Below, in pieces: positions 28,129 through 31,498 of a stretch of DNA of 46,077 bases (positions are counted from its first letter, which is position 1; every line of letters starts with the position of its first letter). The notes under the pieces are model-generated. The model made no database searches and was not told where the DNA came from. It saw only the letters and a program-made list of their open reading frames with translations. A program made the position numbers and the translations under genes. The DNA lies in the NCBI GenBank assembly GCA_016869215.1, contig VGEP01000034.1, positions 1-46,077 of the forward strand, given 5' to 3'. This stretch comes from Alphaproteobacteria bacterium. GTDB lineage: Bacteria > Pseudomonadota > Alphaproteobacteria > Rhizobiales > Xanthobacteraceae.

Positions 28129-28815
28129 ATGAAACGAATCGGGTTTGCCGTACTCGCAGCCATGACGGTCGCTTCCACAACTGCGGACGCCCGGGAGCGT
28201 CCCAAGGAGCGCCCCAGCGCGTTCGTCGACGTCGCGTCGGTCGTGCCCGGGCTGATCGTTGAGATGCGCTATCTCGGCTCGAACAATTTCATCGGACGGC
28301 CGATCGACGGCTACGAGAAGCCGGTGTGCTATCTCACCCGCCCTGCGGCCGAGGCGCTGGCGCAGGTGGCGCGCGATCTGGCGCCGCGCGGCCTCGTGCT
28401 GAAGGCGTTCGACTGCTACCGGCCGGTGCGCGCGGTGCAGCACTTCGTGCGCTGGGCGAAGAACCTCGCCGACGTGGCGCGCAAGGCGGATTTCTATCCC
28501 GAGGTCGACAAGCGCAACCTGTTCCGCGACGGCTACATCGCGTCGCGCTCCGGCCATTCGCGCGGCTCGACGATCGATCTCACCCTGGCCGAGACGGGCG
28601 GCAAGGAGCTCGATATGGGCACGCCCTACGACTTCTTCAGCCCGCGCTCATGGCCGTCGGACAAGAGCGTGAGCGCCGCGGCGCAGGCCAACCGCGCGCT
28701 GCTCGCGGAGGCGATGCGGCGGCGCGGCTTCATTCCCTACAACAAGGAATGGTGGCATTTCACGCTGCGCAACGAGCCCTATCCGGACACCCATTTCGAT
28801 TTCCCGGTGCGGTGA
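28129..28815 (+). CDS. Exported D-Ala-D-Ala dipeptidase, VanX/DdpX-like (M15D)
   Basis: A 228-aa protein starting MKRIGFAVLAAMTVASTTAD, a signal peptide. The mature part has the M15 zinc motif SGHSRGSTIDL (His and Asp ligands) and the C-terminal EWWHF (catalytic Glu, His ligand), plus VEMRYLGSNNFIGRPIDGY typical of the VanX/DdpX group. It hydrolyses D-alanyl-D-alanine or related dipeptides in the periplasm, probably for murein turnover or nutrition. Nothing resembling vanA or vanH is nearby, so glycopeptide resistance is not implied. The start was set at the Met that begins the signal sequence. A 70-bp tandem repeat begins 4 bp after the stop. Confidence 0.88.
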   Translation: MKRIGFAVLAAMTVASTTADARERPKERPSAFVDVASVVPGLIVEMRYLGSNNFIGRPIDGYEKPVCYLTRPAAEALAQVARDLAPRGLVLKAFDCYRPVRAVQHFVRWAKNLADVARKADFYPEVDKRNLFRDGYIASRSGHSRGSTIDLTLAETGGKELDMGTPYDFFSPRSWPSDKSVSAAAQANRALLAEAMRRRGFIPYNKEWWHFTLRNEPYPDTHFDFPVR

Positions 28816-28819
28816 CCTT

Positions 28820-29021
28820 GCCGCACCGCCGAGCGCACGCCGCGTAGAATAGAGGCGGGCGCGAAGGAGCCGGTGCGGCGGGCAAGAAAGCCGCACCGCC
28901 GAGCGCACGCCGCGTAGAATATAGAGGCGGGCGCGAAAGAGCCGGTGCGGCGGGCAAGAAAGCCGCACCGCCGAGCGCACGCCGCGTAGAATAGAGGCGG
29001 GCGCGAAGGAGCCGGCGCGGC
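28820..29021. repeat. Tandem array of three ~70-bp units
   Basis: Units at 28820-28889 (70 bp), 28890-28961 (72 bp, with an extra AT in GAATATAGAGG) and 28962-29021 (partial) are almost identical. Each starts GCCGCACCGCCGAGCGCACG and contains TAGAATAGAGGCGGGCGCGA. CCGCACC at the start and GGTGCGG near the end are inverted copies, so each unit can fold into its own hairpin. The array sits right behind the dipeptidase stop. On the minus strand it is open in frames giving repeated SFAPASI-type peptides, but there is no gene evidence. Slippage makes the copy number likely to vary among strains. Confidence 0.9.
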
Positions 29022-29051
29022 GAACGACATCCGACATCCGGCGGCGCCGAC

Positions 29052-29080
29052 AAAAAAGCGGGGGGCACAAGTGCCCCCCG
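29052..29080 (-). terminator. Strong intrinsic terminator without an obvious gene
   Basis: On the minus strand the perfect stem CGGGGGGCAC/GTGCCCCCCG (loop TT) is followed by CTTTTTTG. This is a textbook intrinsic terminator, yet no convincing coding gene ends just upstream of it on that strand. It therefore marks the 3' end of an unidentified transcript coming from 29081-29370. Confidence 0.68.
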
Positions 29081-29370
29081 AAGACTGCTGGGGATTAGCG
29101 TCGGTTAGGACGCCTCGCTGATCGCTCACTTCTCGACGCGAGCACTGGGCGCTGTTGAACTTCTTCTGCCCTGAATTCGGTTGCCTTCAACTCGTTCCGT
29201 TGGCCCGATGTCCGGTTGGCAAGCCGTTCCGGGCCAACTCTCGACGCCAATCAATCACATTTGAGCGGCCGGGACAACGGGCAGGATTGCCGCAGCGTCA
29301 GGTCGCCGCACGGGCGCGGCTGCAGCGGCTTACGCGGCGCGGCTGCCTCTCCGTGTCGCACCTGAAACGA
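29081..29370 (-). other. AT-richer stretch upstream of an orphan terminator; possible small gene or RNA
   Basis: No recognised gene lies here. On the minus strand a 51-codon frame runs from a TTG at 29250 to a TAA at 29095. It includes NELKATEFRAEEVQQRPVLA and ends just before the terminator at 29052-29080. No good ribosome binding site is visible, and I do not recognise the peptide with confidence. The end of a gene relic or a small RNA transcribed leftward is equally possible. Base composition is closer to that of the transferred patches at 8.2-8.7 and 45.0-45.5 kb than to the backbone. Confidence 0.3.
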
Positions 29371-29395
29371 AATGGGGGGCGCTGGGCCCCCCATT
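29371..29395 (-). terminator. Probable intrinsic terminator of the 69-aa gene
   Basis: Stem AATGGGGGGC/GCCCCCCATT with a 5-nt loop, followed on the minus strand by TCGTTTC. It lies about 57 bp after the stop of the lysine-rich small protein gene. Confidence 0.6.
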
Positions 29396-29451: not shown

Positions 29452-29661
29452 CTACTTTTTCTTCATCGCCTTGCCCTTGCTGCTCTTCTTCTTCGCGACC
29501 TTCTTGGCGTATGGATTGACCGCCTTGAACTTCTTGTTTTCTTTGTCCTTCAAAACGGCCATCGGCACGATGAACTGAAAAAATGCAGCGGCCGGCGTCG
29601 GTACCAGAGCGGCGCTGCCGAGAAATGCCGCCGCGGTAACGGCGATGATCGTCTTCTTCAT
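29452..29661 (-). CDS. Small lysine-rich secreted protein A (hypothetical)
   Basis: A 69-aa protein: signal peptide MKKTIIAVTAAAFLGSAALV ending near PAAA, then a short hydrophobic stretch (FFQFIVPMAVL) and a strongly basic tail. The motif LKDKENKKFKAVNPYAKK is shared almost exactly with the paralogue at 29908. The last 16 residues are mostly Lys (VAKKKSSKG, KAMKKK). GGGGGAG lies a good distance before the ATG. The mature peptide would be tiny, exported and highly cationic, so nucleic acid, lipid or cell-wall binding is conceivable. I know of no named family. It has its own downstream hairpin. Confidence 0.7.
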   Translation of the reverse strand: MKKTIIAVTAAAFLGSAALVPTPAAAFFQFIVPMAVLKDKENKKFKAVNPYAKKVAKKKSSKGKAMKKK

Positions 29662-29831
29662 ATTGGTCTCCCCCTGATTTGGGCTGTTGCCTGTACGATG
29701 CGCGCCCTTCGATTCCAGACGCCGCTCAACTCAAGAGGCGCAACCTCCAACCCGCAAGGCGCGCCAATGTCGCGCGTCAACACACCGCGCCATCGTCGTG
29801 AGGCGAGAGTTCCGTCGTCAGCCGGCGGCCG

Positions 29832-29868
29832 ATAAAAAAAAAGACAGGAGGCGTAGCGCCTCCTGTCA
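29832..29868 (-). terminator. Intrinsic terminator of the 71-aa gene
   Basis: On the minus strand the 12-bp-class stem GACAGGAGGCG/CGCCTCCTGTC is followed by nine consecutive T. It lies about 40 bp past the stop of the second lysine-rich small protein gene. This is one of the clearest terminators in the window. Confidence 0.88.
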
Positions 29869-29907
29869 GCATCATTCTAGTCGTCGAGCAGACGTGAGCC
29901 GCGAGGC

Positions 29908-30123
29908 TCACTTCTTCTTCATGCTCTTCTTGTCGGCCTTCTTCGCAGCCTTCTTACCCTTCTTCGCGGCCTTCTTCGCGTAGGGGTTCACGGCCTTGAA
30001 CTTCTTGTTTTCCTTCTCCTTCAGGACGAAGAATGGAATCAGCGCCGAGGCCGGCGTCGGCGCAACGAGAGTGGCGCCGCCCATGAAGGCTGCGGCGGTG
30101 AACGCAATGATGAGCTTCTTCAC
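29908..30123 (-). CDS. Small lysine-rich secreted protein B (paralogue)
   Basis: A 71-aa protein from a GTG start at 30123 (MKKLIIAFTAAAFMGGATLV signal peptide), chosen because GGGGAGAATAACC precedes it and the signal peptide then aligns with that of the 69-aa protein. After PTPASA it reads FFVLKEKENKKFKAVNPYAK, then a tail of Lys/Ala repeats (KAAKKGKKAAKKADKKS) ending MKKK. The Lys-Ala tail resembles the C-terminal tails of histone-like proteins, but the signal peptide argues for export. The two genes are 246 bp apart, each with its own ribosome binding site and terminator, so they are separate duplicated units rather than an operon. Confidence 0.7.
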   Translation of the reverse strand: MKKLIIAFTAAAFMGGATLVAPTPASALIPFFVLKEKENKKFKAVNPYAKKAAKKGKKAAKKADKKSMKKK

Positions 30124-30326
30124 GGTTATTCTCCCCGTAATCGTCTTGGTGCTGGGCCGCCCGCCAACCCGACGGAAGGCTTGGCATTTGTGCCATGGAC
30201 GGCGGTCCGGTGCGATATGCGCGCGCGCGGCATCGTACCGCACATTGCTCTTGCGGACGGGGGGATTTGTTCATTTTCGGTTCATACGGGCCGTGGCTTT
30301 GCCTCGGCTCGTGGCACTGCCGCGGC

Positions 30327-31457
30327 TCAGGCGCCCCCGAGCACCATGTCGTCACGGTGGACCATTTCGGCGCGGCCCTCGATTCCGAGAATGCTGACGA
30401 TGTCCCCGGAGGATTTGCGCACGATCTTCGCGGCATCCTCGGCGTCGTAGGCCACCAGGCCGCGGCCGATTTCCGCCCCGTCGGGTCCGCGGATCACGAC
30501 CGCGTCGCCGCGGCCGAAATCGCCGTCCACGCGGATCACGCCGGCCGGCAGCAGGCTCTTGCCGTTCCGCAATGCCGCGGCGGCGCCAGCGTCGATGGTC
30601 AGCGTGCCGCGCGGTTCGAGCGAGCCTGCGATCCATTTCTTGCGCGAGGTGACCGGGTTGCCAGCGGTGAGGAACCAGGTGGTGCGGCCGCCGTCGCGGA
30701 TCGCCTGCAGTGGATGTTCGACGTGGCCCGGCGCGATCACCATGTGGGCGCCGGCCGTGGTCGCGATCTTGCCGGCCTCGATCTTGGTGCGCATGCCGCC
30801 GCGGGCGTGGTCGGACGCGGCGTCGCCGGCCATCGCCTCGATCTCCGCCGTGATGCGCGGCACCACCGGGATATGTTTGGCCTTGGCGTCGAGATGCGGC
30901 GGCGCGTCGTAGAGTCCGTCGATGTCGGACAGGAGCACGAGAAGGTCGGCGCTGGCCATGGTGGCGACGCGCGCAGCGAGCCGGTCGTTGTCGCCGTAGC
31001 GGATCTCGTTGGTGGCGACGGTGTCGTTCTCGTTGATGACCGGCACGCTGTGCCACTCCAGGAGCTTGGCGATGGTCGAGCGGGCGTTGAGATAGCGCCG
31101 GCGCTCTTCGGTGTCGCCGAGTGTCACGAGAATCTGGCCCGCCGTGATGCCGCGCCGGCCCAACGCCTCCGCCCAGGTGCGGGCCAGCGCGATCTGACCG
31201 ACCGCGGCGGCGGCCTGGCTGTCTTCGAGCTTGAGCGGGCCCTTCGGCAGCTTGAGCACCGAGCGGCCGAGCGCGATCGCCCCGGAGGACACCACGATGA
31301 TGTCGCGCTTCTCGCGGTGCAGGTCGGCGATGTCGTCGGCGAGCGCATTGAGCCACGCCTCCTTCAGCCGGCCTGCCCCGGCGTCGACCAGCAGCGACGA
31401 GCCGACCTTCACCACGATTCGGCGGAAGTCGGCGAGGGAGGGGACGGAGGTGGCCAT
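30327..31457 (-). CDS. proB: Glutamate 5-kinase
   Basis: A 376-aa enzyme for the first step of proline synthesis, starting [20 protein letters not shown]. The amino acid kinase domain has [29 protein letters not shown] and [15 protein letters not shown]-terminal PUA domain (about residues 280-365) covers [20 protein letters not shown]. An upstream in-frame ATG would add 23 unconserved residues. ProB is usually feedback-inhibited by proline. It is separated from obgE by four accessory genes and from proA by another set. Confidence 0.96.
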
Positions 31458-31498
31458 GCGCTCTATGGGCGTCGCCGCGGCGGGATGGCGGCGGCGCT

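Follow-up and report, generated by a model that had tools for sequence, protein, structure and literature searches.

Murein lipoproteins of the Lpp type carry a lipobox cysteine after the signal segment and a conserved lysine at the C-terminus for linkage by L,D-transpeptidase, and cationic class II bacteriocins are marked by a double-glycine leader and a linked immunity gene. Among lineage-restricted novel families of the FESNov kind, 23.7% are given as signal-peptide proteins (PMC10849945). Among small RNAs, those of the GsrN type have a sigma-EcfG site and a C-rich 5′ loop and typically lie near the ecfG/nepR/phyR locus, the gsrN of C. crescentus lying away from the GSR locus, as far as the cited sections describe them (PMC5869019).

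The window, the whole stretch of 46,077 nucleotides analysed here, belongs to an alphaproteobacterial genome (G000) and encodes two small lysine-rich proteins, A and B. With relatives in genomes G149, G055, G176, G011 and G101 the family has seven members, six of them intact (the G011 copy is frameshifted). Like Lpp, its members are small and putatively exported, and lysine is the last residue in A, B and the copy of G101. Unlike Lpp, the family has no lipobox, because no member sequence contains a cysteine; its C-terminal residue is K (A, B, G101), R (G149, G011) or L (G176, G055), and modelling gave no confident helix. The mature parts resemble class II bacteriocins in size and net charge, whereas the leader, judged by eye, is Sec-like with an AxA-type site and not double-glycine, and no linked immunity or export genes were seen beside the family. 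Likened by description, the family agrees with the FESNov kind, as characterized in the cited sections, in lacking homologues in curated libraries, in its signal segment and in purifying selection, but differs in being found in one genus and at one locus in five of six carriers (PMC10849945).

Searches of Pfam, NCBIfam, PHROGs, PADLOC and the PDB returned nothing above cut-off for A and B, or for the seven rows of the full-length family profile (A3), in agreement with an earlier reading of this DNA (the original prediction) that no named family applied. A known-family search with the A3 profile gave a best E of 0.95. Far under their cut-offs, the latter on the signal segment only (residues 1-28), PF13786 (DUF4179; curated cut-off) scored 17.2 of 30.1 bits against A and PF13663 (DUF4148) 14 of 27 bits; across the seven members the best E was 0.0071 for DUF4179 (three members matching) and 0.071 for DUF4148 (two members). 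A literature search with the motif letters found no publication, and one on small secreted lysine-rich alphaproteobacterial proteins found nothing relevant, judged by title. By its sequence, the family is new and matches no recognisable system.

Coding status and paralogy of genes A and B

Both genes lie on the minus strand, 246 bp apart, between proB and a gene for an M15 dipeptidase-like protein (Table 1), with the coordinates and lengths that the original prediction had given. Each has its own GGGGAG-bearing ribosome site, as proposed. The prediction had also assigned each gene a terminator of its own; that of B is strong, and the structure after A pairs a strong hairpin with a weak T-run. 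Both proteins run from a lysine-bearing start through a hydrophobic stretch, an AxA-type site and a short hydrophobic patch to a common core, LK[D/E]KENKKFKAVNPYAKK, and a lysine-rich tail. The 18-residue motif, described earlier as near-identical, is the same in A and B at 17 of 18 positions. By eye, A, B and their relatives show the basic n-region, hydrophobic h-region and AxA-type cleavage site of Sec export, and the signal-like segments of A and B match as claimed. Lys/Ala repeats occur in the B tail only. AlphaFold2, run on the seven-row alignment, gave no confident fold (mean pLDDT 59.9, pTM 0.21), with the Lys/Ala-rich tail of B as a helix at low confidence.

Table 1. Coordinates of the genes, signals, candidate RNAs and box copies, in the window unless another locus is named
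Feature	Position	Strand	Remarks
Gene A	29452-29661	minus	69 aa, ATG start, lysine-rich, putatively exported
Gene B	29908-30123	minus	71 aa, GTG start, paralogue of A
Ribosome site of A	29668-29674	minus	GGGGGAG
Ribosome site of B	30131-30136	minus	GGGGAG
Intrinsic terminator after B	29843-29867	minus	strong; 11-bp stem, long T-run
Terminator-like hairpin after A	29371-29395	minus	strong hairpin, weak T-run
M15 D-Ala-D-Ala dipeptidase-like gene (PF01427)	28144-28815	plus	provisional start
proB (AA_kinase + PUA)	30327-31460	minus	provisional start
72-bp unit, 2.9 copies	28820-29022		just after M15 gene
RNA1, candidate sRNA	29056-29148	minus	three hairpins, terminator end, conserved
Weak box copy before RNA1	29271-29312	minus	E 0.0155, untrained
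Weak box copy upstream of A	29768-29790	minus	E 0.36 in whole genome, not significant there
G101 copy of the small gene	L005 1501-1683		relocated
G011 copy of the small gene	L006 1398-1600		frameshifted
Small exported protein of G302	L178 207-452	minus	lysine-rich end, no core
RNA1 in relatives	L004, L006, L012, L013, L029, L030, L031
Box in relatives	L118-L124, L129, L130
Second candidate RNA	L028:1379-1492, L029:2146-2259, L030:2146-2260, L031:1361-1475, L032:2198-2314, L033:1368-1487, L034:2197-2307, L036:2218-2339, L079:1253-1367, L161-L165

When its own genome was searched with A, only A and B matched, B at E 2.5e-15. The mature parts of the two align with a score of 132; when one of them was shuffled 2000 times, the highest score reached was 72. 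In a shuffle test of mature parts at equal composition, covering five pairs, likeness was beyond any of 2000 shuffles for A-B, A-G149 and G149-G176, and by a small margin above them for A-G176 (3/2000 as good) and B-G176 (5/2000). The codon usage of A, and likewise that of B, fits five neighbouring genes (0/2000 synonymous randomisations as good, each), and the pair differs at 16, 7 and 30 first, second and third codon positions. Between A and B, dN is 0.22, dS 1.06 and dN/dS 0.20. The six intact members form 15 possible pairs; for the seven that were computed, dN/dS is 0.19-0.36, values that are rough because dS (0.98-1.89) is near saturation, and for each of these pairs the fraction of 1000 bootstraps with pS<=pN was 0.001 or less. 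Judged by these substitution patterns, A and B are paralogues under purifying selection.

A and B are real conserved genes, and of this we are nearly certain. Patchy presence, one broken copy and the lack of a known family could suggest spurious, composition-driven ORFs or relics in neutral drift; that reading is scarcely credible and is largely refuted by the dN/dS values and their bootstraps and by likeness above same-composition shuffles in all five pairs, narrow as it is in the two that pair A and B with G176. Two outcomes on which the original prediction had staked the genes came out in their favour: the codon statistics are gene-like and not those of random ORFs, and relatives occur in other genomes of the genus.

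Its proposal that a whole transcription unit had been duplicated was not supported by the sequence. The coding parts of A and B score 72 (shuffled 9.6, maximum 17), and both flanks score 11, within the range of 300 shuffles upstream (shuffled 9.5, sd 1.3, maximum 15) and downstream (shuffled 7.6, sd 1.3, maximum 14). The likeness consists of the coding part and the ribosome site, with the flanks at shuffle level; since it ends at the ribosome site, the duplication would be old, or spanned little beyond the gene.

Anatomy and distribution of the family

Cut by eye, the mature parts of the six intact members have 34-58 residues, a pI of 10.3-10.8 and a charge of +7.8 to +14.7, in keeping with the strongly cationic character proposed earlier; high charge and pI hold in all six despite variable tail sequence and length. 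In the mature alignment K10, F15 and K16 (K-x4-FK) are invariant in all seven members and are followed by x3-PY in six, G101 being the exception, and each intact member has a second short hydrophobic stretch after the signal segment. The lysine tails of the original prediction are present in A and B; in the family as a whole the tail varies, lysine making up 12-41% of the mature part and the endings being TRTSL in two relatives (G176, G055) and HHHSKR in one. The conserved features are therefore the hydrophobic patch and the K-x4-FK core, and not the tail.

The taxonomic family was represented by 391 genomes from 47 genera, 11 of them from the genus of the window and 380 from others. A profile of the mature part (A4) matched in six of the 391 genomes, all within the genus (6/11), and in none of the 380 from other genera. 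A sample of 397 genomes of the order, which included the own genome and genomes of the same family, held no other real match; a hit in G638 (E 0.011) was dropped because the similar string belongs to an ORF of 391 aa. The profile search across Hyphomicrobiales that the original prediction had suggested thus did not bear out a wide spread, the family occupying one genus of 47.

The full-length profile A3 matched in 242 of the 391 genomes, and among the matches listed outside the genus nearly all extend hardly beyond the signal segment (roughly positions 1-35 of 64) and were rejected. Two of the few longer-reaching A3 matches, none of which A4 reports, were inspected and set aside: G017 encodes a longer exported protein, and the G302 protein, small and exported, has a lysine-rich end but lacks the core and is a different protein. 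Locus L007 was dropped for likeness confined to the signal segment, and L008 for a match lying in rlmH-like sequence. Of 474 candidates from a scan of species genomes with A3, two loci were confirmed (those of G149 and G011); of 593 from a scan with B alone, none was. As to a mobile origin, B alone found no match in plasmids or phages, and A3 no confirmed relative among 56 candidate stretches of viral contigs.

In five of the six carriers the proB-M15 interval holds the gene: G000 (two copies), G149, G055, G176 and G011. The interval of G101 is without it, its copy having relocated to a place adjoining an ABC-transporter ATPase gene. The G011 copy contains a 13-base tandem duplication at which its signal half and motif half fall out of frame with each other; either the gene is broken or the assembly is in error. 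The gene was not found in five of the 11 genus genomes, four of which keep the interval, empty of the gene (G118, G134, G185, G080); in G163, an 80% complete assembly, the M15 gene was not found. No partner gene travels with the family, which makes the phrase 'undescribed system' in the original prediction too strong: within the 1.5 kb covered, the G101 copy sits beside different genes, and the proB and M15 neighbours are also present in genomes without the family.

Across the genomes searched, the family is lineage-specific and genus-restricted, with duplication, relocation, decay and absences seen. As all of these are visible among 11 genomes, gene birth and loss can be traced at one locus, in what amounts to a selection-tested case of a genus-level orphan family of putatively exported microproteins.

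Possible roles of the microproteins

Export of A and B is very probable. Signal peptidase I would cleave them at the AxA-type site, and the mature proteins would reach the periplasm or the medium. There the hydrophobic patch would touch a membrane face and the lysine-rich part would bind an anionic polymer of the envelope (LPS, peptidoglycan or bound nucleic acid), with dispensable tuning of surface charge or envelope stability as the outcome; the original prediction had named DNA, lipid A and peptidoglycan as possible targets. Such an envelope-polymer-binding role is put forward tentatively. The reading that we favour, with less than even confidence, is one of lineage-restricted, Sec-exported, very basic microproteins that may act on anionic envelope polymer. 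The absence of the gene from five of 11 genus genomes and its broken copy in G011 fit an accessory role. With tails as different as HHHSKR and TRTSL, some of the high charge may have arisen as a by-product. The M15 gene is the one envelope gene linked to the family, and it occurs in genomes without the family as well.

Cationic antimicrobial peptides are small and charged and carry a hydrophobic patch. A and B are like them in size, charge and a hydrophobic N-terminal patch, and the patchy presence inside one genus would also suit a secreted, bacteriocin-like antimicrobial, in which a cationic, partly hydrophobic peptide of 34-58 residues would permeabilise competitors. We consider this unlikely, as no immunity gene or dedicated exporter was seen and the neighbours occur without the family too, the leader is not of the double-glycine type, and the core is better conserved than the tail. 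Nor do we give much credence to microproteins retained in the membrane, in which an uncleaved signal segment and the patch would anchor a periplasmic tail, rich in lysine, as a modulator of some membrane complex: the second hydrophobic stretch of the six intact members speaks for it, but AxA-type sites, identified by eye, precede the patch in most members, and the patch, with about 8-12 residues, seems not long enough to cross a membrane.

The Lys/Ala-rich tail of B, with its low-confidence helix, is what recalls exported histone tails and could point to extracellular nucleic-acid-binding proteins of a biofilm matrix; such a function is distinctly improbable for a family in which the repeats are confined to B and relatives end in TRTSL (two) or HHHSKR (one). 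Set beside these alternatives, action on an envelope polymer is the reading we retain. The finding is genuine and modest: a new genus-restricted family of basic microproteins, for which we infer export and an envelope role.

Conserved candidate RNAs and an inverted-repeat box in the proB-M15 interval

The adjoining conserved RNAs may matter more than the proteins. RNA1, a candidate small RNA of the window, has a C-rich, well conserved linker near UAAUCCCCAGC; folded alone it exceeds most shuffles in stability (z -2.38, 5/200 as good). With E values of 1.7e-12 or better, it was found in eight of the 11 genomes of the genus, each time at the proB-M15 interval; all eight are rows of the model. 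The search covered 198 genomes of the taxonomic family at E 0.01 or better, with strict filters and 20 candidates per genome; 12 further matches (E 4.7e-5 to 0.0085) were rejected as terminators or unrelated sequences that, by eye, are without the core. Among the eight sequences 6 of 23 pairs changed on both sides, which 0/500 shuffles reach, and helix 2 is 100% paired, slid controls dropping from 93% to 42-51%; these pairing statistics are favoured because the structure was derived from the same alignment. Further pair types are less telling (27/500 shuffles), and the RNAalifold covariation term is unfavourable (+0.09 kcal/mol). Rfam gave no match in the window at gathering score and three at a lax threshold, all sub-gathering and none on RNA1.

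RNA1 occurs both with and without the small gene and is therefore not an obligatory partner. For duplexes of RNA1 with small-gene ribosome sites, the energies were no better than shuffles in six of six cases (p 0.125-0.85) and also fell among those of 14 control ORF starts (predicted) in the window. A coding function was rejected by eye: some indels have lengths not divisible by three, and in G011 a stop interrupts the longest conserved frame.

Upstream of most small genes and of RNA1 lies a box of about 50 bases with inverted half-sites GGCAA/TTGCC, near GCGGCAA-N9-TTGCCGC. Its 28-base core exceeded all 200 shuffles, made in blocks of two bases, in 10 of the 14 upstream stretches examined, a set that leaves out the stretch before the G011 RNA1, where RNA1 closely follows the small gene. 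Cores were weaker at G101_sm (3/200 as good), G176_sm (8/200) and G000_R1 (19/200), and the box is absent before B (117/200); all these counts are descriptive only, because the core was picked from the same stretches. A nine-site model, scored on 150 candidates per genome in the 11 genus genomes, gave nine matches at E < 1e-7, all of them training sites in the proB-M15 interval, and beyond the training sites none better than E 0.003.

The weak copy before RNA1 is the best match of this model in G000, and other untrained matches also have expected positions: in the G080 interval (0.0165, the best there), at the G176 small gene (0.0088) and upstream of the relocated G101 gene (0.36). Such weak matches prove little, because equally weak ones fall elsewhere, for example G185:C69 (0.003) and G011:C37 (0.004). 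For a genome-wide REP-type repeat many strong copies would be expected, whereas strong matches occur only in the proB-M15 interval, and that identity was rejected. The box is a possible operator, with a putative regulatory role.

Nine relatives in the genus have a second candidate RNA in their proB-M15 interval, with a GGAAC-N16-(C/G/A)(G/A)TT site upstream of a conserved stretch and two hairpins. It is absent from the window genome (best match E 2.4), and a 72-bp repeated unit stands at its place in the window. We call the site sigma-EcfG-like for its resemblance to the sigma-EcfG consensus. The promoter expression matches eight of the nine relatives, with a near-match (AATT) in G011; because it also matched 15 other places in the 32 loci scanned, it is weak evidence alone, and support comes from its fixed position in the alignment and the unconserved spacer. 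Compared with GsrN, the second RNA has a sigma-EcfG-like site and lies in the proB interval, C. crescentus gsrN itself lying apart from the GSR locus. In its nine sequences 7 of 19 pairs changed on both sides (8/500 shuffles reach that); the count of cells was 13 (0/500) and that of further pair types 14 (127/500).

A model of this RNA, built from eight genus rows and G031, was searched against 258 genomes. At E 2.2e-6 or better it matched nine of the 11 from the genus and 10 more: G031 (of genus g31), which is itself a training row, and nine genomes of genera g34 and g38 that had no part in training. The next matches were G244 (1.8e-5) and G034 (3.5e-5), both g34, and we regard those at 7.6e-5 and weaker as mostly chance. 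Markers of proB were near nine of 16 inspected loci, including all seven g34 loci with E < 5e-5, and near none of the four g38 loci; in G031 proB and the second RNA are separated by the M15 gene. Rfam had no match at the stretches of six loci.

Taken as a whole, the proB-M15 interval might be a regulatory and export cassette, one box switching on the cationic microproteins and RNA1, with the second, stress-sigma small RNA in relatives; we think this quite unlikely. If true, envelope charge and a post-transcriptional programme would change together, RNA1 acting with its exposed UAAUCCCCAGC linker. Loci L160, L167 and L168 of the second RNA are without the GGAAC start. In one genome the model has a second match, G185:C195:8242-8387 (E 8.4e-7), possibly a paralogous small RNA.
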